From a virus, in the IMG/VR virus record IMGVR_UViG_3300048929_000777, positions 1 through 42,508 of that record: a DNA stretch of 42,508 nucleotides. One strand, 5' to 3'. Shown piece after piece: positions 3,976 through 42,258 of the stretch. Numbering within the stretch: position 1 is the stretch's first letter; each line of letters begins with the position of its first letter. Under the pieces are notes generated by a model, which saw only the letters and a list, made by a program, of their open reading frames with translations, did no database searches and had not been told where the DNA came from. The translations under genes were made by a program, and so were the position numbers.

Positions 3976-4485
3976 CTATTCGACCATCTCTTCAGGTCGA
4001 ACAAGGAATTTGATCCTGTCACGTCTCCATGTTTTGAATGTCGGACCATCGTATCCGCCTACCCATCGGGTGTCAGGATCGTGTACAGAATGTCCTAGAC
4101 CTGTGATCAGAATGCTTCGTATTGACTGATTCCCGCGGGCATCCTCGTACCCCAAGACCCATACTTGCGGGTCCGGATCTACGGAGTCCCATGCAATCTC
4201 CGGAAAGTTGTTAGCGTAATGGGTCGGTTTTTGCGGAAGTTCCGTATCTGGAAAGACTGAATCGGATAGATACTGCAGGAGCTCCAGCTCAGAAATGACG
4301 GCTGTTCCCAATCGTGCCGCTTTTTTGGCTTTCTTTGAGTCCGCTTTGGCGCAAACCAGGTAGTGGGTATCGAATGTTACAGAGTCGACGTAGGTAGCGT
4401 TTTGTGTGGAATTAATGAGCTGGGCGACCGCCTTCCGTGGCTGAGACAATGGCCCTGTGATGGCGACGCGTATCTTATCGCTCAT
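3976..4485 (-). CDS. BRCT domain protein with WYL-like C-terminus
   Basis: Residues 5-75 read as a BRCT domain of the bacterial NAD-ligase type: AITGPLSQPRKAVAQLI, then THYLVCAKADSKKAKKA, then the LGTAVISELELLQYL end. The C-terminal part (about 105-165) has YEDARGNQSIRSILITG and TFKTWRRDRIKFLV, which resembles the WYL/WCX ligand-sensing fold (Y.D..G..S.R.I, then R.fR.dRI). BRCT modules bind DNA ends, nicks or phosphoproteins; WYL domains sense ligands or nucleic acids in defence and damage regulators. The pair would suit a DNA-state sensor, but function is inferred. Its start overlaps the stop of the upstream exported-protein gene (ATGA), so both are co-translated. It sits between the immunity gene and the early operon, a common accessory-gene position. 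Confidence 0.75.
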   Translation of the reverse strand: MSDKIRVAITGPLSQPRKAVAQLINSTQNATYVDSVTFDTHYLVCAKADSKKAKKAARLGTAVISELELLQYLSDSVFPDTELPQKPTHYANNFPEIAWDSVDPDPQVWVLGYEDARGNQSIRSILITGLGHSVHDPDTRWVGGYDGPTFKTWRRDRIKFLVRPEEMVE

Positions 4486-4904
4486 CGCATCTCCGGCGAA
4501 TTGATGGCTTTGGCGAGACGCTTGCTGCAGTCTTCGGCGACGCTGCGATAGCCGTTATACGCGCGCCCCTTCGTTGAAGAGCAGGAAAAAATCTGCTTAC
4601 CGTCTTTCCCTGAAAGGATGAGCATTGCGTGCGCTGATGCTTGGGGAAACATAGAGATTCCACGCCCAATGTGGTTCTCGGCGTCTAAAACCCCGCTCAA
4701 CACATATTCCGCTTCCGCCCTGTCTTGCACCTGAACAAGGGGAACACCCTTCTTCCGTATGGCTGCTGCCACCTCATCATGAAAGGGCGATCCGTCGGAT
4801 TCAATAAAGACAGCGGCACCACGCTTTATGTTCTGGCCGATGGAATGAGTGGGAAAGGCCGCTAAAGCGATCCCAAGAAGGCCCAAAAGAAGCTGTTTGC
4901 ACAT
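4482..4904 (-). CDS. Sec-exported hypothetical protein (140 aa)
   Basis: The first 23 residues are a signal peptide: MCKQ, the hydrophobic run LLLGLLGIALAAF, then cleavage after THSIG or nearby. The mature part has an alternating alpha/beta look (AAVFIESDG, DEVAAAIRKKGVPLVQV, AEAEYVLSGVL) and a conserved-looking end (RSVAEDCSKRLAKAI). I do not know the family; the pattern resembles small periplasmic proteins of unknown function. It is first in a two-gene minus-strand operon with the BRCT protein, divergent from the early rightward genes. As an exported prophage product it may alter the host envelope, but that is inference. Confidence 0.7.
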   Translation of the reverse strand: MCKQLLLGLLGIALAAFPTHSIGQNIKRGAAVFIESDGSPFHDEVAAAIRKKGVPLVQVQDRAEAEYVLSGVLDAENHIGRGISMFPQASAHAMLILSGKDGKQIFSCSSTKGRAYNGYRSVAEDCSKRLAKAINSPEMR

Positions 4905-26659: not shown

Positions 26660-28933
26660 ATGGGTGTAACTGGCGGCGGCGTAACGGTTGTAGTTGTTGG
26701 GCAAGATGATACGAGTAAGGTATTCGATCAGATCGAAGACCGGATGCGCCGCGCCGCTGTTCCGGCGGCCGATCTAGGTAAGAAGCTGGGCGACGGCATG
26801 GGGCACGCTGTGCCGCAGGTTGCCGCTGCCAGCGCAGCCATACGCCTGTTCGAAGGCCAGATACCCATTCGTGCAGTGGAGCGGTTGATAACGATGGTGC
26901 CCGGCCTTGGCGCTGCACTGCAGGTGGCGTTCCCTGTAGTTGGCGGCATTGTCTTCGGCGAAATGGTGTTGGAGAACATCAATAAGCTGCGCCAGATGCA
27001 GAAGGAAGCTCTGACTGCTGGCCAGCGTAGCGCGGAAGCCTTCGCGCAATTGCATGACAAGATGCAGGTGACGATCACCGACCTAGAACTCACCAGCAGT
27101 AAGCTGCAGGATGAGATCGATAAGCTGTCGGGCCATCCTAACAATGGCCTAGCGACTGCACTGCTGGAGGCGAAGAAGGCTGCCGATCAACTACTGACCT
27201 CGCTGAATGAGGATCGCAAGGAACTAGAGGCCCTACTCAAAGAGCATTCGGTTGGCATACTGCAATCCATCTTTACCGGAGTCGCCGCCACTGGAAAGCA
27301 GGAACTGGAAATCAAGGCGGACGGAGAAAAGTTGGCCGGTGCGGTACGTACCGCCAACGCCGCCTACGAAAAAGCTCTTACGGAAGCTGGCGGGGATGCC
27401 TCGAAGATCGAGGCCGCGACCACGGCGCGCAATCAGTCGGTGAAGAAGTCATTTCAGGACCAGATCAATCTTTACGTCGCAGAGGCGGCACGGCTGCGCA
27501 AGGAAGAGAGGGATTCGAAAACCGCAAGTGATCGCATGGCTGCTACAGGTTTGAATCCTGCCGCGGCCTTGGCGCGTCGAGTGGATAACTCTGCCCGCAT
27601 TGCCAACGTCGAGGGGGTGGCTCAGCAGCTTCGTGACCGCCTACAGTCAGAGGTTTTAGACGAAAGGATCTCTGGGCAGCGCGTCACAGTCGGCGCCCTC
27701 AAGGGTAATAAAGAGGGTGATGAGGTAGCGCGTAAGGCTGAGGAGTTGCGCCGACAGCGACAGGAAGCCGACGCGAAGTTCGCAGAGTCGATGGTCAAGC
27801 TGCAGCAGGCGGGAGCGGATGAATCGCTGCGCCAGGCAAGGGGTCGGACAGATCAGGAGATGGCTGTACTCGACGCCTCGCACAAGATGAAGCTAGTGTC
27901 CGACGAGGAGTACTACCGTCAGAGGCTGGCCATTGAGGAGCGATATGACGGCACGCAGCTCGGCGCCGCAAATGTGCGACGCGCAGCAATCAATACTCAG
28001 ATCGGAGGCCTTGAAGGGCAGACCTTTAGTGGCCCGGATGCAGCGGCCAAGCGCGTGGAGCGTGACGCTAAGGTGAACGACCTTATGGCGGAGCGCCTAA
28101 AGATCGCCGGACAGATTGCAACCATTGAGGCAGACTCGGCGAAGAAGCGTATTGACGCTGAGGCCCAAATACTGGAGTCTCACAGGCGCGACGCCGAAGA
28201 TAACTACAGTCGTGCGAGCACTGTGCTGGATGCGGGCCGCAACAACGTTGCTTTCCGTCAGCGCCGCGGACTTATATCTGCCGGTGATGCTCGGACGCAG
28301 AATCAAGCCATCGACGCACAGCAGGCGGATGAACTGCAGAGAGTTGTAGACGCTTACCAACAGCTTGCCGACATCAGCGACGACGACACCGCTGCGAGTG
28401 CCAACGCCAAGATCGCGCAGTTGAAAGAGCAGATACTTGAGCTGCGGAATCCAATCGATGAGTCGACCGAAGCGCTGCGTACTGGCTTCGACAACGCATT
28501 TGAAGGTCTTTTCGAGAATGTTGACCAGGGCACGAAGAGCATCGAGAACTTCGCTAAGAGCATCCAGCGGACATTGACCCAGCAGGTTTACAAGGAACTG
28601 ATTCAGCCGCAGATCGATGGCGTATTGCGTCAGGCTGCTGGAAGTGTCAGCGGGGCAATCAGGCCACAGGGTAAGTTGCCATCTGGCGTAGATCTATCGT
28701 CCGTAGTTCGCCCTGTTGTGCCGAGCGGAGCCGCCGGAATCCTCGGCGACCTGACAGGTGATAAGGGAACAACATCGCACATTACGATCGTGCTGCAGCA
28801 GGACGCTACCGGCGCGGCGAAGGTGGCCGATGTATTTGCTGATGGAAACAACCGCGACCACATCATTGCAACGGTAGCGGACAACATCGGCAGCGGAGGA
28901 ATTCTGCGGCAGTTGTTGGGCCACGGCCTCTAA
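26660..28933 (+). CDS. Tape measure protein
   Basis: The 757-aa protein begins right after the chaperone. The first 60 residues resemble tape-measure starts (VTVVVVGQDDTSKVFDQIED). A hydrophobic segment (about 78-110; ITMVPGLGAALQVAFPVVGG) may enter the host membrane. Residues about 115-640 are Ala/Lys/Glu-rich coiled coils (LRQARGRTDQEMAVLDASHK, KKRIDAEAQILESHRRDAED). A conserved-type end (LRTGFDNAFEGLFENVDQG, KSIENFAKSIQRTL) is seen. Length implies a tail near 110 nm by the usual 0.15 nm per residue rule. Confidence 0.9.
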   Translation: MGVTGGGVTVVVVGQDDTSKVFDQIEDRMRRAAVPAADLGKKLGDGMGHAVPQVAAASAAIRLFEGQIPIRAVERLITMVPGLGAALQVAFPVVGGIVFGEMVLENINKLRQMQKEALTAGQRSAEAFAQLHDKMQVTITDLELTSSKLQDEIDKLSGHPNNGLATALLEAKKAADQLLTSLNEDRKELEALLKEHSVGILQSIFTGVAATGKQELEIKADGEKLAGAVRTANAAYEKALTEAGGDASKIEAATTARNQSVKKSFQDQINLYVAEAARLRKEERDSKTASDRMAATGLNPAAALARRVDNSARIANVEGVAQQLRDRLQSEVLDERISGQRVTVGALKGNKEGDEVARKAEELRRQRQEADAKFAESMVKLQQAGADESLRQARGRTDQEMAVLDASHKMKLVSDEEYYRQRLAIEERYDGTQLGAANVRRAAINTQIGGLEGQTFSGPDAAAKRVERDAKVNDLMAERLKIAGQIATIEADSAKKRIDAEAQILESHRRDAEDNYSRASTVLDAGRNNVAFRQRRGLISAGDARTQNQAIDAQQADELQRVVDAYQQLADISDDDTAASANAKIAQLKEQILELRNPIDESTEALRTGFDNAFEGLFENVDQGTKSIENFAKSIQRTLTQQVYKELIQPQIDGVLRQAAGSVSGAIRPQGKLPSGVDLSSVVRPVVPSGAAGILGDLTGDKGTTSHITIVLQQDATGAAKVADVFADGNNRDHIIATVADNIGSGGILRQLLGHGL

Positions 28934-29676
28934 GTACGGATGCCGTTCCGATAGATACGCTGCCAGGCGACGTCCCACTGCCGCTCGAAGCGATCCAGCG
29001 CAACGCGTGTCACCGTATCGACCATGTGCATGTTTGACTCGGGCACGCGCGCAGACGGGACGAGGATGTAGAAGGGAATCACATCACGCGCCCGCTTATC
29101 GCTGGCAACGCGTGCAAGGATGGCCCACCGGCCATCCTTCATCTTTTGCTTGAAGAACACGAAGCCGCGGACGACACGCTGCCGCCCGTTGACCTGCTGA
29201 CCCTTGCGTCCGGTGTATAGGAAGCGCCCATCGGCTGCACCAAGTAGGTTCCGCGGGCGCAGCTCGTTGGGGATGGTGGTGGGTGCAAACTGCCGCAGGT
29301 ACTTCGTCGGGATGGCGATGAACTCACCGCCGGCGTGCTGCACTTTTTCGCCCCCGCTCTCCTGCCGCCCAAGATAATCCGGTGCGCCGGTAGAGCGATT
29401 GGCAGTGTCCGTGTGGACGTCGGCCTGGATTGGATACTCGTTGCTTCGCGCAGGCTTGATGCGGATGCCTTGCTCAGTCCACGAATTGCGCAGCTTGAAC
29501 GCGCCGCGGACATTACGCTTCACTTCTGCCTGCGCATCCTGTGCCACTCCGGTGAGCGCGGAGGCCAGAGCGAAGGGAATGGATCGCTGCTCAAGTTCAC
29601 GGCGCTGGGCGATGAAACCGCTCGCATCCACCTTGACCTGAAACGCCATGCCGTCAGATTCGCTCGGTTCCTGCAT
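28930..29676 (-). CDS. Minus-strand structural-looking phage protein
   Basis: ATG 29676 gives 248 aa; ATG 29649 (MAFQVKVDASGFIAQRRELE) is an equally plausible start. Segments such as LTGVAQDAQAEVKRNVRGAF, FIAIPTKYLRQFAPTT, GRQRVVRGFVFFKQKMKDGR and VIPFYILVPSARV look like tail-completion or minor-structural proteins of the HK97 gp10 or DUF6441 type; this is similarity of pattern only. It is reversed within the tail operon, converging with the tape measure gene (four-base overlap) and divergent from the SleB gene. Whether and when it is expressed is open. No terminator was found on its strand. Confidence 0.7.
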   Translation of the reverse strand: MQEPSESDGMAFQVKVDASGFIAQRRELEQRSIPFALASALTGVAQDAQAEVKRNVRGAFKLRNSWTEQGIRIKPARSNEYPIQADVHTDTANRSTGAPDYLGRQESGGEKVQHAGGEFIAIPTKYLRQFAPTTIPNELRPRNLLGAADGRFLYTGRKGQQVNGRQRVVRGFVFFKQKMKDGRWAILARVASDKRARDVIPFYILVPSARVPESNMHMVDTVTRVALDRFERQWDVAWQRIYRNGIRT

Positions 29677-31724: not shown

Positions 31725-34337
31725 ATGCTGACCGTCTGCGAGAACCCATTCAATCTGCAAAGAGACCAGCGCGCGATTGCGCTGCTTCCCGCCGAGACAG
31801 TCGGCGAAGCACTGGAGCGTGAAGGGCTGGATGGCCGCTATGTGCTGTCGTGCAACGGAGAACTGTTGCCGCCTGAGCGTGCGCTTGCGTATGTGCCGCA
31901 GGATGGCGACGACTTGCAGGCTGTTCCGCTGCTGGAGAACAGTACGCTAAAGTCTCTGGCGATGATTGGCGTCACTCTACTTGCGGCTGCCGTGACCTAT
32001 GGCGCTTCCTTCACAATCGCTGGAACCACCTTTGGATTCACTGGACTAGGCCTTAGTCAGACTGCATCCGCGATTGCTTTCAGTGCTGCGACAATTGGCG
32101 GCCAGATTGCAGTAAATGCAATCGCCTCACTCTTCCAGAACAAGCCAGGAGGCGGTAACTATGGTGTCCTTGGTCCCGTAACAACTGCACGCTCGGGCTT
32201 GCCGATCCCAAAGGGCTACGGAACCATCCGTACCGCCTCAAACATCGTGGAATCTTGGATCGACATCATGGGTGATAACGGAGATCAGCACGACGTGGAT
32301 GATGGTGCAGATAGGATTGGACGCCAGTACATCAATGTCCGTTGCAATTTCGGACTCGGTCCGGGGCGGTCGCTAACGGATCTCCGCATCAACGATCAGG
32401 ACATAGCCAACTATGCAGATGTGGCTTATTGCATCCTGTACGGAACGAATGACCAGGCACCGGTGACGGCCGACGACTCGCGTTGGGTGGTGCTGAACCG
32501 TACGAACTATGGGACCACGCAGAATGACTACCCCACCACGGACTTCAACACAATCAATAACAATTATCCCAAGGGGCAGCGTGTGCGTGCGGCAAGCGCG
32601 GGCGTGGTTCTTCCGGGACAGCGCTCTGATACGCAAAAGCTGACGGTCTACGTCACCTTTCCGCAAGGGGTGTGGCGCCTTGACGACAACAACGTTATTA
32701 AGCGTGCTGCTATCGACTACGACGTGTACTACCGCGTGGCTGGCAGCGGCGATGCCGGATGGGTACGCGTGCTGCCCACCTCGAACGACTACACCGGCTC
32801 CACGCACTACTACTACAACATCCGGCAGACACTGCTGCGACAGGCGACCATAATTGATGGCCTGACGCCGGGTAAGTATGACGTGAAGGTGGTGAAGAAC
32901 GGCAGCGGAGCCGTGCATAATCCGCTGGACCACTTCGAGCACGAGAGTAACAAATGGGGCGACCAGATGTGGGTCGAGAGCGTGCAGGAGACGAGTTACA
33001 CCACACTTGCTTATCCAAACATGATCCAGGTGTGCCTGCGCATCATGGCCTCAGATCAGTTGGCCGGCGCGGACTTAAATCTGACGGCGGTTATTGACTA
33101 CGGCTTAAGGAGTGAGTTGCCAGCGGAACTCGCGGAGCTTTCCGAAGACACGCCCGCTGCTGTTGTGTACGACATACTCCACGATCCTGTGATGGGCGCT
33201 GACATTGACGACGACCGTATCGACCTGAATTTCCTCTCACAGTGGGCCACGCTGACGCAGACGATGGTGGACGATGGCGACGGTGGTACGCAGAAGTTGG
33301 CCGTCTTCAATGGCGTGTTCGACCAGAGCGGGCAAAGCGTATGGGACGTATTGCAGACCATCGGTGTGATGTCTCGTGCGAACCTGCAGCGCGTGGGCAC
33401 CAAGATTACTGGATGGCTGGACCAGGACGACGACCCTGTGCAGATGTTCCATATGGGCAACATGCTTGCGGATAGCTACTCCAAGACCTACCTAAATCTT
33501 GAGGATCGTGCGCAGGAGGTAGCTGTTACATTCGCTGACGCCGACGATGACTACCGCACACGCAACCCACTTCGAGTCATCGCGGACACCGACGAGAACT
33601 CGTCCGAAGCGTTGAAGAAGACTGACATAAACCTGCTGGGCTGCACGAGCCGTGCGCAGGCTTGGTATTGGGCCGTGCTTCGTCTGCGTGAGCTTGAAAC
33701 GCTGCTGCGTACGCATACGTGGAAGTCGAACACGCAGGCGATACGGTGTCGCACGGGGAACATCGTAAAGCTGCAACATGACGTTCCGCAGTGGGGATTC
33801 GGAGGCTTGCTCCAAGAGGGAAGCACGGCATTGTCGCTGGTGTTGGAAGCGAATGACTATCCCGATCCGGTCACCGAGACGTGCAATGTCGTTGTGATGC
33901 ATCCGGCCTTGCAGCGCGCGGCCATTAGCATCACGGCCATCAGCGGAAAAGTGCTAACAGTGTCCGGATATGACGGGACGACTCCGGTAAAGCGGCTGTT
34001 ACAAGGCGGCGCCGACGTGGCCGTGACGGCCGTCAATGCCACAACGCTGACCGTAGATTCTTCCGATGGACTCGCCGGAGGATCTGCTGCTCTTTGGGAT
34101 TTGGATGTGATGGAGACGCGGTCTGTGACTGCGCTAAGCGGCAACGTCGCCACGTTGGCATCGCCCTTGTCTGTCGTGCCGCAGGCGCTCGATACGGGTT
34201 ACATCTATCAATCCACGACGAAGCAATCGAAGCTCGTCCGTATCAAGCAGGTTCGCCGCATGCCTGGTGAGAAAAGCCAGATCACAGCCGTCGACTATGA
34301 CCCGACGGTATACGACATACCTGCGCCGGTGCTGTAA
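31725..34337 (+). CDS. Tail tip protein, gpI-like start fused to gpJ-like
   Basis: The 870 aa begin with a gpI/ubiquitin-like part (VCENPFNLQRDQRAIALLPA, CNGELLPPERALAYVPQDGD, DLQAVPLLE), then a Gly/Ala-rich hydrophobic segment (about 85-140). Next come the J-type blocks GPVTTARSGLPIPKGYGTIR, YINVRCNFGLGPGRSLTDLR, AAVVYDILHDPVMGAD and the C-terminal QVRRMPGEKSQITAVDYDP. It forms the central tip hub, and its C-terminal half may contact the host receptor. It is shorter than lambda J (1132 aa), with the receptor-binding end reduced; the next genes probably complete it. Confidence 0.88.
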   Translation: MLTVCENPFNLQRDQRAIALLPAETVGEALEREGLDGRYVLSCNGELLPPERALAYVPQDGDDLQAVPLLENSTLKSLAMIGVTLLAAAVTYGASFTIAGTTFGFTGLGLSQTASAIAFSAATIGGQIAVNAIASLFQNKPGGGNYGVLGPVTTARSGLPIPKGYGTIRTASNIVESWIDIMGDNGDQHDVDDGADRIGRQYINVRCNFGLGPGRSLTDLRINDQDIANYADVAYCILYGTNDQAPVTADDSRWVVLNRTNYGTTQNDYPTTDFNTINNNYPKGQRVRAASAGVVLPGQRSDTQKLTVYVTFPQGVWRLDDNNVIKRAAIDYDVYYRVAGSGDAGWVRVLPTSNDYTGSTHYYYNIRQTLLRQATIIDGLTPGKYDVKVVKNGSGAVHNPLDHFEHESNKWGDQMWVESVQETSYTTLAYPNMIQVCLRIMASDQLAGADLNLTAVIDYGLRSELPAELAELSEDTPAAVVYDILHDPVMGADIDDDRIDLNFLSQWATLTQTMVDDGDGGTQKLAVFNGVFDQSGQSVWDVLQTIGVMSRANLQRVGTKITGWLDQDDDPVQMFHMGNMLADSYSKTYLNLEDRAQEVAVTFADADDDYRTRNPLRVIADTDENSSEALKKTDINLLGCTSRAQAWYWAVLRLRELETLLRTHTWKSNTQAIRCRTGNIVKLQHDVPQWGFGGLLQEGSTALSLVLEANDYPDPVTETCNVVVMHPALQRAAISITAISGKVLTVSGYDGTTPVKRLLQGGADVAVTAVNATTLTVDSSDGLAGGSAALWDLDVMETRSVTALSGNVATLASPLSVVPQALDTGYIYQSTTKQSKLVRIKQVRRMPGEKSQITAVDYDPTVYDIPAPVL

Positions 34338-34346
34338 GGAGAGACG

Positions 34347-35024
34347 ATGCCAACGCCCACCCTGACCATCACGATCTCTCCCTCATCCGCTCCGCAGGAT
34401 TCTGCCGTCTTCGCGATCACGTGGGACTTGGAGGACTACGGCTCCGTCACCGGAGGAACGCTGCAGGCGCAGCTCGACGGAGCCAACGTTGGGTTGCCGA
34501 CAAACTTCGGCATCAATAAGACCTTCTCTGTCGCGCTTCCAAACACGACATCCGTAGGCAGTCACGCCATTGTCGTGCAGTTCTCTGGAGACCCCTCCTT
34601 TGGGGTTTCTCCTGCTACATCCAACTCTGTATCAATCACGGTGACATCCGGTGGCGGTGGCGGCGGAGGAGGATCATCCACTGGACCGCAAGCGCTCGTG
34701 CGCGTGGTGTGTTCATCGGCAGCGGGAACTGTACTAACCCGCACGCAGATTGAAAACGGAGAGCTTCCAGACCGTGCCTATCAGGTATCGTCATTAACCA
34801 TTGACGCCGCTGGCGGCGGCTACGATGGCTTCTCCAAAGGCACGCTCACGGGAACTGTGGGGGGAACTGCAACGCGCCAAGACCTCACGCTTACGGTAGA
34901 CGGAGACGGAGCGGTGACAGCGGTATCTGGATATGACTCATCTACGCTTTGGGATGCTCCTCCACGTGTCACGCTGACACGTTGGGATGGCTCAGGAAGC
35001 GGCGCTAATTTCCTCGGATACTGA
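34347..35024 (+). CDS. Ig-like tail-tip accessory protein
   Basis: The 225 aa fall into two parts. Residues 1-100 are an Ig-like beta-sandwich (LTITISPSSAPQDSAVFAIT to ATSNSVSITVTSG). An eight-Gly linker follows, then a second beta-rich domain (LVRVVCSSAAGTVL, LTIDAAGGGYDGF, RVTLTRWDGSGSG). No export signal is seen, unlike its downstream neighbours. It starts nine bases past the J-like gene behind AGGAGAG. Ig-like modules on phage tails commonly give weak adhesion to cell-surface sugars. Confidence 0.7.
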   Translation: MPTPTLTITISPSSAPQDSAVFAITWDLEDYGSVTGGTLQAQLDGANVGLPTNFGINKTFSVALPNTTSVGSHAIVVQFSGDPSFGVSPATSNSVSITVTSGGGGGGGGSSTGPQALVRVVCSSAAGTVLTRTQIENGELPDRAYQVSSLTIDAAGGGYDGFSKGTLTGTVGGTATRQDLTLTVDGDGAVTAVSGYDSSTLWDAPPRVTLTRWDGSGSGANFLGY

Positions 35025-35045: not shown

Positions 35046-37502
35046 ATGAAGCGTGTTCTCCTCGCCGTCGCCCTCTTGTTCGCGTCTGTTGCATTTGCTC
35101 AGGTCCCGCCGCGCGTAACCCTCACCGCGTCGAACGTGCTGGACAGTGGTGGCAGCGCTCCGTTGATGTCCGGCAAGCTTTGCTTTGTGACTACGGATGC
35201 GAACGACAAGCCAATGGGGTATCGCGTCGGTAGCGGTTCGGGGCAGACATCGGCATCGCCCGACCAGGCGCCGTGCGCAACTGTCACTAATGGAGTTATA
35301 TCGCCAATCCAGATCATTAATAGTGCGGCGTCCAGCCCCCTTAATGCATGCATTCGCGTCGTGACCAAGAATGAAAAGGACATCGAGATACGCCGCAGCA
35401 AGTGCGTGCAGACCGGTACCGCTGATACCCTCTTATCATGGTGTGCGGTTTCTGGAGGTGTTGTTGCATGCAACTGGGACAAGTATCCGATTGGCACAAT
35501 CCCTGTACCCCTAGTGCAGCTGGGGCCACCGGGGCCGCAAGGCAACAATGGCGCTGACGGAACGAACGGTCTCAATGGGTGCATGGTTGGCGGTTCATGC
35601 GCGTCTGTTATTGGTGGGTACTTTGGCCAGTATGACGCCTTTGGAGACTCGATCACGCAAGGTGTACAGTCTTCGACATACAACACCTATTCCGAATGCC
35701 CACATGCAGGCTCGGGTACATGCTATGTGGCACAGCTCGCCTCGGTTGTCGGTGTTCCTGTAACCAACCATGGTATTGGTGGCGACGAAGCTGCCGATCA
35801 GCAGATTAAGGTTTACAGCACATCGTTCTCGACCACGAATCATCAGTTGGTGACGTACCAGATTGGGACGAACGATGGCGGCCAGTATTTTACAAACCTC
35901 AATGGCCTGAATATGTTTCGTAATCTGCATGCCGCCACCATCGCATATATCGCCACGGCCGGGCCGAACCAGTATCGCCTCGCCGATAATCCCAACTGCA
36001 CCTTTAGTGGGTCGTGGGCCTCCAGCACGTATTCTTCGATAGGCAAGATGACTACGCATCCCGGAGATTCCGTAACCTGCTCAAACCTGAACGGAGATGC
36101 GTTGTACGCAGCTGTCACAATGATTGATGGCAACCATACTGCGCAGTTCACGGTTGGCGTTGACGGAAGCGGAGCTCAGCCAATTGCATGGCCTTATGGT
36201 GATGGCTACGGAACCTTGCCGATCATCACCGGCCACGGCGTTACCTATGGCGATCAGCTTATCCGTATTCCGACCTCGTTCGGCAGTCACTCGATTACGA
36301 TCACAATGGTCACGGGATCGTCTGGCACGCTGAATGTAAATTGGGTGGCTGGCAACGGACAGACCAATTTTGCAGGCGCACCGACCCTTTTGGTGGCTGG
36401 TCCGATCATGAGTTCCACGGTTCCATCTGGCGACCCAAACGTCAACTATAAGCGTGCGGTGTATTCAGAGGTCGTCCATGCGAATGCGGATTTGCTGCAG
36501 CAGGACGGCCTTCGTATTGCCTATATGGCCGCAAACAAGGCGATGGATGCAAGCCTGGATGACCTTGCAGATGGTACACACCCTAACGATCCAGGATACG
36601 CACACCTTGCAAATGGGTATCTTGCCACCCTCTTATCGGTTTTCAAGCAGGGAATCCGCCACAGCGGCGGCCTCTACGTATCCGGCATGGACCAAGAGGG
36701 CGGCGGCGGTGCAGGCTCACACACGGATTATGACTCTTTGCGTGGCGTCGTGACACATCGCGCAATCGCGCAATCAGCCGCGGGTGATACGCAGCCCTAT
36801 GGCACGGAGCGGTGGTCGCTGTGCCAGTACAACGAGTACGCTCTGCCGGATGTAATCGGCGGAAACACTGATATTGCCTGCCTGCGCGAACTGACGTTGG
36901 ATGAATCAGGTGTCATCGTGGGGCCAGTTCCATCGACTTCCCGCTCTGGACAGTCTTTCCAACTCAATTTCGCTAACCCTGCGCACTACCCGAGTGACAT
37001 CCGCGATCTAAATGCAAACAACTATATCCAGCGCCGGGTGCTGTGGTACGGCAACGACGGCGTGCAGGACTACATGTGTTTTGGTATCCCTGGGCCATAT
37101 GGAGGCACTGGTGCAGAGGGGACAACATGTAGGTTGAAGGTTGGCACCATTGCAAATGTCACTCCAGAGCCCTTGTTTGTGGATATTCCTTCTTCGAGCA
37201 CGGGCACCAATTACGAGCTTGGAAGCTATACGCAGCCTGGACTTGCTACCGGCAATGCGAATGGCTTTCAGGTGGGAGTTGGGCGAAGTGTTCCATTTAA
37301 TTCTGCAGTTGTGGGTTTCCATTACGCCGGAGCGGGAAGTCATAGCAATACCGCGACGTTGGGGCTGTTTGGCACTCCTGCCGTGACTGTTGACGGGGAC
37401 GGCAACGTGACAACCCCTCATGGGTTCACTGGAACTAAGACGGCTGGCACGTGCGTGCTGACGATCTCCAGCGGAATTATCACTGACGTTTCTGGTTGCT
37501 GA
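35046..37502 (+). CDS. Exported SGNH/GDSL hydrolase with collagen-like part
   Basis: Residues 1-18 are a clear signal peptide (MKRVLLAVALLFASVAFA-Q). A beta-rich region follows, then a short collagen-like tract (GPPGPQGNNGADGTNG, about 159-175). The SGNH blocks are FGDSITQG (Ser about 201), NHGIGGDEA, IGTNDGG (about 273) and DGTHPNDPGYAH (Asp about 509, His about 512). An inserted beta-sandwich (about 315-455) lies between the third and last blocks. The C-terminal 270 residues are fibre-like, ending ITDVSGC. SGNH esterases remove acetyl or acyl groups from polysaccharides. Position and collagen tract say tail fibre; the export signal says secreted. This conflict is the main point. Confidence 0.82.
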   Translation: MKRVLLAVALLFASVAFAQVPPRVTLTASNVLDSGGSAPLMSGKLCFVTTDANDKPMGYRVGSGSGQTSASPDQAPCATVTNGVISPIQIINSAASSPLNACIRVVTKNEKDIEIRRSKCVQTGTADTLLSWCAVSGGVVACNWDKYPIGTIPVPLVQLGPPGPQGNNGADGTNGLNGCMVGGSCASVIGGYFGQYDAFGDSITQGVQSSTYNTYSECPHAGSGTCYVAQLASVVGVPVTNHGIGGDEAADQQIKVYSTSFSTTNHQLVTYQIGTNDGGQYFTNLNGLNMFRNLHAATIAYIATAGPNQYRLADNPNCTFSGSWASSTYSSIGKMTTHPGDSVTCSNLNGDALYAAVTMIDGNHTAQFTVGVDGSGAQPIAWPYGDGYGTLPIITGHGVTYGDQLIRIPTSFGSHSITITMVTGSSGTLNVNWVAGNGQTNFAGAPTLLVAGPIMSSTVPSGDPNVNYKRAVYSEVVHANADLLQQDGLRIAYMAANKAMDASLDDLADGTHPNDPGYAHLANGYLATLLSVFKQGIRHSGGLYVSGMDQEGGGGAGSHTDYDSLRGVVTHRAIAQSAAGDTQPYGTERWSLCQYNEYALPDVIGGNTDIACLRELTLDESGVIVGPVPSTSRSGQSFQLNFANPAHYPSDIRDLNANNYIQRRVLWYGNDGVQDYMCFGIPGPYGGTGAEGTTCRLKVGTIANVTPEPLFVDIPSSSTGTNYELGSYTQPGLATGNANGFQVGVGRSVPFNSAVVGFHYAGAGSHSNTATLGLFGTPAVTVDGDGNVTTPHGFTGTKTAGTCVLTISSGIITDVSGC

Positions 37503-37548
37503 AGCACGGCAAATTGCCATGATCCGGCTGGACATTCCATAACAGCGC

Positions 37549-37986
37549 ATGAGAATTTTTCGTGCGCTGTTTGCTTTGGTGTTGTGGTTCCCGGTTGTGG
37601 GTGCCGCGCATGCGCAGTTTCCCGGCTGCGATCAGGCGAAACCGCTGACCATCACATCGCCCATCACCGCGAGCGGATTGACGAAGCTGGTGACGAACAA
37701 CCGCCTGCCGAACGGCAGTATCAAGGTATGCTCGTACACCATTCAGGTGCGTACCTCTGCGTCTGCGGCTAACTTCCAGCTCGTCGCCGGTACCGGCACG
37801 GCATGTGAGGTGAATACGACGCCGCTGCAGTCAGCCATCGTGGTCCCCGCTTCGGATGAGCGCTCCATCGGTGCAGGGAAGGGGCCGCTGCCTCAGTATG
37901 ACTTGCCGTCCGGCTACGACCTTTGCATCAACCTGAGTGCCGCCGTGTCCTCGGCAGTTGTTGGAGGCACCTATGCGATTTACTAA
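37549..37986 (+). CDS. Exported hypothetical protein between SGNH genes
   Basis: The 145 aa start with a signal peptide (MRIFRALFALVLWFPVVGAA, then HAQ cleavage). The mature part is beta-rich, with four cysteines (GCDQ, VCSYTI, ACEV, LCINL) that could form two disulphides; it ends GGTYAIY. I do not recognise the family. It overlaps the next gene by 14 bases, so both are likely made together. It may be a chaperone or a surface partner of the flanking SGNH proteins. Confidence 0.65.
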   Translation: MRIFRALFALVLWFPVVGAAHAQFPGCDQAKPLTITSPITASGLTKLVTNNRLPNGSIKVCSYTIQVRTSASAANFQLVAGTGTACEVNTTPLQSAIVVPASDERSIGAGKGPLPQYDLPSGYDLCINLSAAVSSAVVGGTYAIY

Positions 37987-39901
37987 GCTCGGCATGCTCC
38001 TTGGTCTTATCGTTGCTGGGTTAGTGCTTCTTGCGCTGCCTCTATCCATGTTTCCGCAGGCGGTATCCGGAGGCGGAAACTCTGGTAATGGCGGGATACC
38101 AACGAGCCCTGTCTCGCAGAACTCCGGAGGGACAGGAATAAATACCGTCGTAAGCGGACTCTACCGCTGGTGGGACTCGTATGGTGCCTGCACGGGCGCT
38201 ATCGGCACTGGTGCGAGTGACTCTCTAAATCAGTGCTCTTTCTCGATGGCAAAGCGAGACATCCCTGGGCCTTCGCGCAATTGGTCAGTAGCTGGAACTA
38301 CGTTTTCGCAAATCCAGCAGAGCATCTTCGCCAACATTGCTCAGTATGAAAACGTGGTTTTGCCTCCGAAGCACGAATACGGAGGCGGTGAAAATGACAG
38401 CGTTTCATGTGCTTCCGCATCCGCTTCTTGCGGGGTTGCCATGCGCTTGATGAGATCGGCGGACTGGCTGCGCTTGATGACCCAATATCCGTCGCGTGTC
38501 ATGCCGAGCACTAGCGCCTGCGCCAAGACCGGAACCTGGACAAACGACACTTCCAATGCGGTGGTTCCGGCTGGCCAAACTACGCTTGGATACCCCGTCT
38601 CCAACACCACCGGGACAGGTACACTCACGTGCACTGTACCTACCTCGGCGTCATCCCAGGTATGCCTCACGACTCTGAACACAACAGCAGCCACCGCTGT
38701 ATTTACAGTCTCCATCGATTCTTCTCTGGTTGTTGATGCGAACTCCGGCACGACATCGTGGTCGGCTACAACTCTCAGTCCTACCAACCCAGCACTGACC
38801 GGAGCCAAGGCTTTATATGGTCAGTGCTTTGCTGTGACGCCAAACCAAACACATCAGGTAGTGGTAACTGTCTCCTCCGGTTCCGGTACAGAAATCGGAA
38901 TGATCAGCACGGTGCCACCACTTGCTCAGCAGCCCTATCTTGCCGTCTACAACGTAATCACGGATTCAGTCTGGACGAATGCGGCCGTCTGGAATTCCAT
39001 CACGTCCTCTCTGATCACGACGTTTCAGGGATATGGTTTCGGTCATATCTATCTGGACGACCTAGTGAACGGAACGCCTGGCATGAATACCGCTGCGGAC
39101 ATATCATCGTCCGAGCAGGCGCCTCTGCCAGGATCGACTTCCCCTAACCACCCAGGACCGATTGGTCAACTACACATGTATCAGACCGATGTCGCATCAG
39201 CGGCAGCAGCAGGCTTTCGCTTCTCTGGTACTGGTATGGGAGGAAAGAGTACCGAGCTTGGCGTGTCATCTATTCCTTTCCGGTTTTACCCATACGGCCA
39301 CGGACAGGCTCAAACGTTCTATGAGAAGTTCCACCTCATGGGAGATTCCAATTTCCCTAGCGGTGTAGCTCTCTATTCCGGAAATAACTTTCTCGCCGGG
39401 TATGCGACGTATACAGACGCTTCGAGTGGGCAACCGTGGTCTGGAAAAAATATCCTCTCGGCCTTTTCCCCCGCAGTGAACACATTGTGGAATTGCACTT
39501 CCACAATCCCCAACAACACTGCGCTCACCACGGTTGTTGCGAGCTCTATCTTCACGACAAAACTCTGCGATGATCCTGCCGGAAATGCCTATCGCAACAT
39601 CATTGTGCAGACTGTCGGAACTGCGATTGCGTCAGCCGCAACCATCGCGCCTACTACAGGTCTTGTCCACGTCACAGGCACGGCGGCCATCAGTGCCGTC
39701 ACACCCCCACCAGGAGTGTGTGACAAGGGCGCACTCGGTTGCACAATCACCCTCATTCCTGATGGTGCATGGACGTTAGCTACTGGTGGAACGCCCTCTA
39801 CGACGTCGTTCACTTTCAATAACGCCACCACAGCCGTTGTAGGACGACCTATGGCTCTTACCTGCGACGTTGCGGCGCAAAGATGCTACGCTCCTTACTA
39901 A
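37973..39901 (+). CDS. Exported divergent SGNH-like protein
   Basis: ATG 37973 gives 642 aa. A hydrophobic N-terminal segment (GMLLGLIVAGLVLLALPLSM) is a signal peptide or anchor. The SGNH outline is visible but altered: RWWDSYGACTG in place of GDS (Ser about 69), NWSVAGTTFSQIQ as block II, YGGGENDS (about 136-143) for block III, and SPNHPGPIGQLHM (His about 393) for block V, where the Asp three before the His is Ser. A beta-sandwich insert (about 185-310) sits at the same place as in the SGNH protein upstream. It looks like a diverged paralogue, perhaps with altered or lost catalysis. Confidence 0.65.
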   Translation: MRFTKLGMLLGLIVAGLVLLALPLSMFPQAVSGGGNSGNGGIPTSPVSQNSGGTGINTVVSGLYRWWDSYGACTGAIGTGASDSLNQCSFSMAKRDIPGPSRNWSVAGTTFSQIQQSIFANIAQYENVVLPPKHEYGGGENDSVSCASASASCGVAMRLMRSADWLRLMTQYPSRVMPSTSACAKTGTWTNDTSNAVVPAGQTTLGYPVSNTTGTGTLTCTVPTSASSQVCLTTLNTTAATAVFTVSIDSSLVVDANSGTTSWSATTLSPTNPALTGAKALYGQCFAVTPNQTHQVVVTVSSGSGTEIGMISTVPPLAQQPYLAVYNVITDSVWTNAAVWNSITSSLITTFQGYGFGHIYLDDLVNGTPGMNTAADISSSEQAPLPGSTSPNHPGPIGQLHMYQTDVASAAAAGFRFSGTGMGGKSTELGVSSIPFRFYPYGHGQAQTFYEKFHLMGDSNFPSGVALYSGNNFLAGYATYTDASSGQPWSGKNILSAFSPAVNTLWNCTSTIPNNTALTTVVASSIFTTKLCDDPAGNAYRNIIVQTVGTAIASAATIAPTTGLVHVTGTAAISAVTPPPGVCDKGALGCTITLIPDGAWTLATGGTPSTTSFTFNNATTAVVGRPMALTCDVAAQRCYAPY

Positions 39902-39919: not shown

Positions 39920-39949
39920 GCGGGGCTGGCTAAGGCTGGCCCCGCTTTT
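39920..39949 (+). terminator. Rho-independent terminator after the SGNH genes
   Basis: GCGGGGC, 12-base loop, GCCCCGC (39920-39945), then TTTT. CTTTTGCGTGTTTGGCGCAC follows, partly like the tracts after the other terminators at 13678 and 21566. Confidence 0.8.
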
Positions 39950-39998
39950 GCGTGTTTGGCGCACATTTCTCAACACATGGGATAACCACCATGAAGCC

Positions 39999-40655
39999 AT
40001 GACCACTGCACGCAAATTCGAGATCGGTATAGCTTTTCTGGTGGTGCTCTTCCTTGTGAGCGCCTACATCCGCGAACGTGAGGCGAGGGTAACCGCAGAG
40101 GCTGCAATCGCGGCCAAGACGGATGCGCAGAAAGAGCGTGACACTCAGACTGCCGCGGCAATCGCGGATCTCAAGAAGCAGATGGACGGCGTAAAGACTG
40201 CCCCGCAGGCTGCGCAGGTGATTGAGCGATACATCGCCGCGCCGCCTACAGTCAACGGACCTTCGTTGAGGACTGCCGATCCGGTCACCGTTGTGGAGCA
40301 GGGCGACTTGAAGGGCTCGAAGGTATACGACGAGCTACCCGCAGCGCCGGATACCGAGCAGCGCGTGATTCTGACGGATGCCCAGGCGCAGACGATTGCA
40401 AAGCAGCAGATTGTGTGCGATGCCACACAGAAAAGTCTGAGCACATGCAGCGCGGATCTCGCGGACCAGAAGCAAGCGACCGCTGTAGCGGTGAAGGCGC
40501 TTAAGGGCGGGAGCTGGATGCAGCGGGCGTTGCGCGTTGCTGTTCCGGTGGGATGCGCTGCCGGCGGGGCGTTTGCGGGTGGCTATTTGAAAGGTGCGCA
40601 GGGAGCGGCTCTCGGTGCTGTGGGTGCCGGCGTGCTCTGCGCGATTGGATTCTAA
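39999..40655 (+). CDS. Membrane protein with coiled coil, spanin-like
   Basis: ATG 39999 gives 218 aa. An N-terminal membrane helix (FEIGIAFLVVLFLVSAYI, residues 8-25) is followed by a coiled coil rich in Ala, Lys and Gln (about 27-70) and a periplasmic-like middle. A Gly/Ala-rich C-terminal hydrophobic region (VAVPVGCAAGGAFAGGYL) is also present. The N-in helix plus coiled coil resembles Rz-type inner-membrane spanins. The Gly-rich end is unusual for Rz. It begins the lysis-type cassette. Confidence 0.6.
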   Translation: MTTARKFEIGIAFLVVLFLVSAYIREREARVTAEAAIAAKTDAQKERDTQTAAAIADLKKQMDGVKTAPQAAQVIERYIAAPPTVNGPSLRTADPVTVVEQGDLKGSKVYDELPAAPDTEQRVILTDAQAQTIAKQQIVCDATQKSLSTCSADLADQKQATAVAVKALKGGSWMQRALRVAVPVGCAAGGAFAGGYLKGAQGAALGAVGAGVLCAIGF

Positions 40656-41229: not shown

Positions 41230-42258
41230 ATGCAGAAATCACTCGATGCAAAGATTGTGGCCGGCGTGGAGCGGGCGTTGGCGACGAAGTTGTCTCACCG
41301 CGACATCGCGATGCAGTTCGGTATCTCTGTCGGTAGCGTGTCGAACGTGAAGGCGCGTATGGCGCAGCCCGTAAAGGCGGCGGGGGTACGCGCTGACAAG
41401 AAGATCGCTACATATCACTGGCGTGACTTCATTGAACCAGCGAAGGCAATGCAGCGGCTCAAGAAATCAACATCGTGGTCGCAGGATCAAGCACGCATTG
41501 AGCTTGGCGATGGTAAGTCGCCCGTCATCCTGTGCGGGTTCGGTGACCAGCATATCGGCTCGTACGGCGCGAACTACGACGGCTTCGTGGCGATGACCGA
41601 AGAGATTGTCAAAACCCCCGGCCTCTACATCGCTTTGATGGGCGACTTTGCTGAGATGGCCATTCGTCTACGCGGCGTACTGGAGGTGACGAGCCAGGTG
41701 CTGACGCCGGAAATGCAGGAGGCGTTCCTGGAGTCGTGGCTGGATGAGATCCAGCACAAGGTCGCCTTCGCCACATGGGACAACCATGCTGTCATGCGAC
41801 AAGAGGCGCAGGCTGGTACTTCCGCCGTGAAGAACCTGCTGGCGCGCCGGTGCGTTTACCACAACGGCATCGGCCATTCTGACATCGTTGTCGGCAAACA
41901 GGTCTACAGGGCTGCAGCCAGCCATAAGTTCCGTGGCGGCTCCATGTTCAACCGGTTGCATGCCCAGGGCCGGTACGTTCGACAGCAGGCGGCAGACCGC
42001 GAGCTGGTGTTCATGGGAGATATTCACCAGTGGGCGTTCTCGGCGACGGAGGACGCGGGCGCTGAGCGCGTCTACATCACCGGCGGTACGCTCCACGAGA
42101 ACAGCGGATATGCCAAGCGCTTCTTTAGCCTGACAACCGCGGCGCACTACCCCTGCGTGGTGCTGATGCATGATCGTCACGCGATGATTCCGTTCAAGTC
42201 CATCGCAGAGGCCAGGACATTTGTCGCAGGGTGGGAGAGAAGTGTTGGCAGGAATTGA
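41230..42258 (+). CDS. HTH-metallophosphoesterase fusion
   Basis: The 342 aa combine an N-terminal helix-turn-helix (SHRDIAMQFGISVGSVSNVK, residues 22-41) and a calcineurin-like metallophosphoesterase domain. Metal ligands are visible in order: GDQHIG (D-x-H, about 107-109), MGDFAEM (GD, about 138), TWDNHAVM (N-H, about 185), ASHKFRG (His about 231) and GDIHQW (about 263-266). The domain could cut phosphodiesters such as nucleic-acid ends or cyclic nucleotides. Place after the lysis genes, near the right end, is typical for cargo. GGAGACAC precedes the ATG. Confidence 0.75.
   Translation: MQKSLDAKIVAGVERALATKLSHRDIAMQFGISVGSVSNVKARMAQPVKAAGVRADKKIATYHWRDFIEPAKAMQRLKKSTSWSQDQARIELGDGKSPVILCGFGDQHIGSYGANYDGFVAMTEEIVKTPGLYIALMGDFAEMAIRLRGVLEVTSQVLTPEMQEAFLESWLDEIQHKVAFATWDNHAVMRQEAQAGTSAVKNLLARRCVYHNGIGHSDIVVGKQVYRAAASHKFRGGSMFNRLHAQGRYVRQQAADRELVFMGDIHQWAFSATEDAGAERVYITGGTLHENSGYAKRFFSLTTAAHYPCVVLMHDRHAMIPFKSIAEARTFVAGWERSVGRN

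Follow-up and report, generated by a model that had tools for sequence, protein, structure and literature searches.

By the usual account, tailed phages finish building their virions in the cytoplasm, and their fibers normally lack an export signal. The locus studied here raises the question of why three consecutive genes behind the tail-tip genes of a phage, where tail fibers are expected, would each begin like an exported protein. They lie in a window of 42,508 nucleotides (an entire 42.5-kb IMG/VR record) that also encodes an integrase, a CI-like repressor, a terminase, a portal, a capsid protein, a tail terminator, a tail tube protein, a tape measure, an endolysin, and J. This gene set, combining an integrase and a CI-like repressor with head and tail genes and J, identifies the window phage as a lambda-like temperate siphophage. 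The genes of interest follow the order J, Ig-like gene P5, P1, P2, P3, terminator-like stem-loop, and spanin-like gene, so P1 to P3 fall within the late tail operon with J on one side and lysis genes on the other. The features, in window coordinates, are as follows.

31725 to 34337, plus strand: homologue of the central tail fiber protein J (tail tip), upstream of the fiber cluster (phrog_31, E 8e-56; PF13550)
34347 to 35024, plus strand: P5, Ig-like Big_3_5 tail-associated protein (PF16640, E 3e-5, below the family cut-off)
35046 to 37502, plus strand: P1, with a signal peptide, fiber head domain, short collagen-like stretch, SGNH hydrolase with insert, and C-terminal region; 18 Cys
35046 to 35099, plus strand: Sec signal peptide of P1, predicted cut AFA/Q
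35100 to 35519, plus strand: head domain of P1 with three predicted disulfides (46-77, 102-120, and 133-142), from alignments, cysteine co-occurrence, AF2, and the Foldseek match to 8kec
35520 to 35579, plus strand: collagen-like stretch of P1, LGPPGPQGNNGADGTNGLNG, from the sequence
35637 to 36680, plus strand: SGNH hydrolase domain of P1 (block I at 35640, block III at 35865, block V at 36570)
35961 to 36380, plus strand (approximate bounds): insert that separates blocks III and V of the SGNH domain of P1; the Pfam match is full length only once it is removed
37549 to 37986, plus strand: P2, a small signal-peptide protein; 4 Cys
37973 to 39901, plus strand: P3, with a signal or anchor, an SPVSQNSGGTG fiber-like linker, and a possible degenerate SGNH region; 14 Cys
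39920 to 39945, plus strand: terminator-like stem-loop directly 3' of P3 (11 pairs, 9 of them GC, then TTTT)
39996 to 40655, plus strand: spanin-like (Rz-type) anchored protein, where the lysis region begins, called from sequence outline and position only

The ORFs of P1 to P3 are nearly contiguous, with the start of P3 overlapping the end of P2, and a consensus scan found no excess of promoter-like sites before P1 and a strong terminator only after P3. This arrangement bears on the possibility that the genes serve lysogenic conversion or superinfection exclusion, in which surface proteins of the lysogen would modify or mask receptors. The position recalls that of lambda Lom, an exported protein encoded directly after J, and the window phage does have an integrase and a CI-like repressor. 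However, Lom is by annotation an outer-membrane protein without the fiber head, collagen, and enzyme modules of P1-type proteins. A moron has its own promoter and terminator and stands apart from the late genes, whereas P1 to P3 are nearly contiguous members of a late operon. We consider a lysogenic-conversion role very unlikely, and evidence from an isolated phage, presented below, points the same way.

Other ORFs in the window were also noted. A 248-residue ORF (28930 to 29676, minus strand) lies antisense inside the plus-strand tail operon and looks conserved, with a similar minus-strand protein adjoining tail genes at L102:826-1545. A small ORF at 4482 to 4904 (minus strand) starts with MCKQLLLGLLGIALA, is signal- or lipoprotein-like, and neighbors a DNA-ligase/BRCT-like fragment (3976 to 4485, minus strand). 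After the lysis genes, positions 41230 to 42258 (plus strand) encode an HTH plus metallophosphoesterase/exonuclease-like protein; proteins resembling it come after the fiber region in phages G001 and L102, and a DNA repair exonuclease is annotated near the lysis genes of phages Tunturi 3 and 4.

The original prediction held that three consecutive genes carry a Sec-type signal or anchor, and the ORFs, their positions, and their N termini all bore this out; the signal-peptide prediction proposed alongside it, run with a rule-based predictor, flagged all three proteins. P1 begins with MKRVLLAVALLFASVAFA, followed by the predicted cut and QVPPR, and P2 begins with MRIFRALFALVLWFPVVGAAHA, followed by the cut and QFPGC, whereas the signal or anchor of P3, MRFTKLGMLLGLIVAGLVLLALPLSMFPQAVSGG, lacks an ideal cut site. 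All three starts have a positive charge and then a hydrophobic core, and P1 and P2 contain a textbook AxA/Q cut site. When applied to 106 control proteins of lambda, phage P2, and AcaML1, this simple rule flagged six (lom, bor, Rz, lysA, lysB, and lysC), all of them exported or membrane proteins, and none of the structural or fiber proteins. The only other strong hits in the window were the spanin-like gene and one small minus-strand ORF; P5 has no signal peptide and a single Cys in its 225 residues. The late operons of lambda and phage P2 likewise place fiber genes (lambda side tail fiber orf401/orf314 and P2 H) behind J or the baseplate genes; unlike P1 to P3, however, these fibers have no signal peptide and contain 0 to 0.5% Cys. 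The Sec-type signals thus set P1 to P3 apart from the Caudoviricetes fiber, which has no export signal.

These signals could nevertheless go unused, if the start codons were wrong or if the fibers were kept in the cytoplasm with the hydrophobic start perhaps acting as a virion anchor, as the signal of P3 might. Ribosome-binding sites precede the signal starts (AGAGAG upstream of P1 and GGAGG upstream of P3), which supports the annotated starts, and the P1 DNA contains no other plausible start immediately behind the signal. In addition, the AxA/Q cut context is consistent over divergent phages, and cysteine pairs track the signal, as detailed below. An unused signal is therefore very unlikely; chance signals and wrong start codons were both considered and dropped.

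P1 and P3 had been proposed to be two SGNH proteins with an insert at the same point. This was correct for P1, while for P3 the fold was not established. P1 matches PF13472 (E 3e-11), and its partial Pfam match extends to full length when the insert is taken out (PF00657, E 1.7e-15, positions 3 to 206 of 208). Its catalytic motifs occur in order: block I GDS (S202), block III GTND (274 to 277), and block V DGTH (D509 and H512). These profile matches and motifs identify P1 as a genuine SGNH hydrolase that carries extra sequence between blocks III and V. Without that insert, it resembles SGNH/GDSL hydrolases (PF13472 and PF00657) in its full-length match and catalytic blocks; it differs from them in that the domain sits in a signal-bearing phage fiber-type protein and is interrupted by the insert. 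The outline of P3 resembles the SGNH outline of P1, but no Pfam SGNH profile matches P3 with or without its insert, and a single-sequence AF2 model (pLDDT 33) gave no usable fold. Alignment of P1 with P3 scored z = 6.2 against shuffles, yet the composition-adjusted BLAST E value was 0.058, which makes the likeness suggestive only. This alignment places the block V Asp and His of P1 opposite Gly and Ser, which is not quite the Ser in place of Asp that had been proposed. The substitutions suggest that P3, if it is an SGNH relative, has probably lost activity, and the non-enzymatic role proposed for it originally is possible.

Right after its signal, P1 contains a head domain of ~130 residues. 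Through a TerL alignment and then head-domain alignments, we traced this domain to 32 distinct phage proteins, most of them in fiber-type positions of sipho- and myophages. A signal peptide, cut nearly always before Q, is present on 29 of these 32 proteins; from reading their sequences, L099:5779 is taken as signal-less, because its hydrophobic stretch is internal and lacks a positive start, and L145:4470 as signal-bearing. Whole P1, P3, J, and single-sequence TerL used as queries returned no fiber relatives from IMG/VR, GenBank phages, plasmids, or GTDB contigs. By tblastn with three different members as queries, the head domain was not found in any of 50,697 GenBank phage records, and GTDB scans with single-sequence TerL and with the head-domain alignment gave no match.

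The head domain occurs straight after J in G001 (where an apparent beta-helix spike follows the domain), G006, and L102; between the tape measure and tail-tip genes in L103, L145 to L148, and L160, all signal-bearing; and after baseplate genes in the myophages L138 and L139. Its architecture is modular, in that the same head is joined to SGNH, apparent beta-helix, collagen, or CBM parts, and other signal-bearing members match collagen repeats, tail fiber PHROG families, and carbohydrate-binding modules, including CBM5/12. P1 to P3 and the homologues share with tail fibers and tailspikes a tail-tip or baseplate neighborhood in the late operon, and the head-domain proteins also share the layout of a head followed by a variable sugar-binding or enzymatic tip. 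Three head-domain proteins lack a signal. Two are G016 fibers located after J, one of which has a head and GDSL layout like that of P1, and the third, in L161, occupies the same slot between tape measure and tail-tip genes as the signal-bearing versions. Tandem head domains behind a single signal peptide were observed within one protein in L137:9473-13009 and L149:9875-11998.

To place the head domain structurally, an AF2 model of the P1 head (pLDDT 76) was compared with solved structures using Foldseek. The nearest fold was gp34, the long tail fiber of the Anabaena myophage A-1(L) (PDB code 8KEC; PMC10966104), with a probability of 1.00, an E value of 4e-3, and a TM score of 0.42 to 0.47 by query length. 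This is a moderate match, and the likeness is weak and structural only. Pan3 and P22 tail-complex chains rank lower in the list. In A-1(L), the shoulder domain of the long tail fiber (residues 1 to 155) anchors the fiber to the baseplate (PMC10966104).

If the signals are used and the proteins fold in an oxidizing compartment, paired cysteines that track the signal are expected. Cysteine makes up 2.2 to 2.8% of P1, P2, and P3, versus 0 to 0.9% of J, capsid, portal, and tape measure (J, 0.9%; capsid, 0.1%; tape measure, 0). In the family as a whole, the six cysteines of the head domain act as three pairs. C5 and C6 are both present in 25 domains, both absent in 9, and never found alone (P = 2e-8); co-occurrence is also seen for C3-C4 (P = 1.5e-6) and C1-C2 (P = 2e-4), all by statistics that ignore kinship. 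C1 and C2 are linked to no other cysteine, whereas C3-C4 correlates also with C5-C6, and in the AF2 head model C3/C4 and C5/C6 lie opposite one another, by register, across predicted hairpins. An even number of cysteines is found in 20 of 22 complete signal-bearing head-domain proteins (counting, for L118 and L155, one Cys just before the domain boundary) and, among ORFs, in 25 of 26 with a signal versus 91 of 157 without. The three signal-less relatives have 0, 0, and 3 head-domain cysteines, 0.2 to 1.0% overall, and the pairs are missing. Finally, L133:7021-7911 has an extra pair (LTCTAS and LPCPDT) that its close relative L135:9929-10819 lacks, the difference expected when a whole disulfide is acquired or lost. 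By rule-based prediction and co-occurrence, then, these proteins have the cleavage-motif signal and the paired cysteines of a Sec-exported, oxidatively folded protein.

Signals and paired cysteines also fit the main rival explanation, that the genes encode late-made secreted depolymerases, esterases, or adhesins that are not part of the virion. At lysis, such proteins would strip capsule or slime and free progeny, with the fiber-like parts serving for trimerization and sugar binding. The enzyme and binding domains of the family (GDSL, beta-helix, and CBM5/12) are consistent with this, as is G008, in which a separate signal-less protein follows J. So too are the signal-bearing head-domain proteins whose genes lie away from the tail genes, in the portal-capsid interval (G001, G007, G008, L122, L150, and L152), where a tail fiber role is not obvious; these also count against the export of virion fibers. 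In that interval, a second small signal-bearing protein (QQTPIAYDTLGHPIYGG...) is well conserved after the head-domain protein (L117:18259-18708, L118:14060-14488, and L152:10808-11284) and is possibly a head-associated exported protein. However, the signal-less proteins of L161 and G016 have the same head in the same slots and cannot be Sec-secreted, so they are best read as virion parts. The fold match of the head to a virion fiber also argues against non-virion enzymes, as does the fiber region of myophage L138, in which most large genes carry signals and one small tail-fiber-family gene does not. On this evidence, secreted non-virion enzymes are an unlikely explanation, but one more plausible than lysogenic conversion or unused signals.

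An isolated phage shows the same feature in other proteins. Tunturi 1 (PP887698), a podophage that infects Tunturiibacter psychrotolerans (Acidobacteriota), carries signals on five tail-region genes (gp12, gp13, gp14, gp16, and gp17, with 20, 10, 20, 1, and 32 Cys), of which gp14 is annotated as a tail spike and gp17 as a virion structural protein; the other Tunturi 1 virion proteins checked have no signal. Like P1 to P3, gp12 to gp17 form a signal-bearing, Cys-rich run in the tail region, but the phage differs from the window phage in being a podophage, and no head-domain homology was detected in it, so its set represents separate fiber families with the same feature. The main text of the Tunturi genome paper does not contain the term "signal peptide," and integrase or recombinase genes are annotated only in Tunturi 3 to 5, with none reported for Tunturi 1 (PMC11924767). 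Signal-bearing spikes in a phage with no reported integrase argue against a lysogen-only role, which we dropped on this ground together with the promoter, terminator, and contiguity evidence. Export is not required of such phages, since the tail proteins of Tunturi 3 and 4 (which also have few Cys) and the protein after J in G008 lack signals, and Tunturi 3 and 4 show that the feature is not universal among phages of that host group; these cases and the moderate fold match also count against exported fibers. Integrase matches in plasmids were uninformative on the host of the window phage; by analogy with Tunturi 1, our guess is Acidobacteriota.

The original prediction left a choice between secreted or surface enzymes of the lysogen and an unusual route of fiber assembly. 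The evidence disfavors the former and favors the latter, because the P1 head recurs in fiber-type proteins, including signal-less relatives in equivalent tail slots, because its nearest fold is a virion tail fiber, and because the genes run within the late operon to its terminator and Tunturi 1 has signal-bearing spikes. We think it slightly more probable than not, overall, that P1 to P3 are Sec-exported virion fibers that bind receptors or modify polysaccharides, are oxidized in the periplasm, and dock at lysis. The sequences themselves provide the signals, the paired cysteines tied to them, the fiber-like position and architecture, and the signal-less relatives in the same slots; from these we infer export through Sec, disulfides, docking at lysis, and an esterase role for P1, with good support for export and oxidation. 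In such a route, P1 to P3 would be made as Sec pre-proteins, unlike ordinary fibers, and signal peptidase would cleave after AxA, or P3 would stay anchored. The chains would then acquire their fold and their disulfides in the periplasm, and at lysis the fibers would dock via the P1-type head domain onto tails assembled in the cytoplasm. P1 may act as an esterase on a host surface sugar. The broader proposal is that in some soil phages, among them at least some of Acidobacteriota, virions are finished outside the cytoplasm through Sec export, periplasmic disulfides, and attachment only at lysis; it is a tentative one, to which we give nearly an even chance.

In the open-access journal literature searched, we found no reports of Sec signals on tailed-phage fibers, and one study takes the fact that phage variable proteins lack signal peptides as support for their phage origin (PMC6199706). 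Our results caution that signal-bearing genes beside J are not automatically lysogenic-conversion genes, and the combination of a signal, paired cysteines, and a fiber head may serve as a sequence marker for receptor-binding proteins in soil viromes. If the proposed route is correct, it would give tailed-phage assembly a periplasmic branch, in which the phages gain oxidized host-binding proteins and the host Sec and Dsb machinery joins phage maturation.
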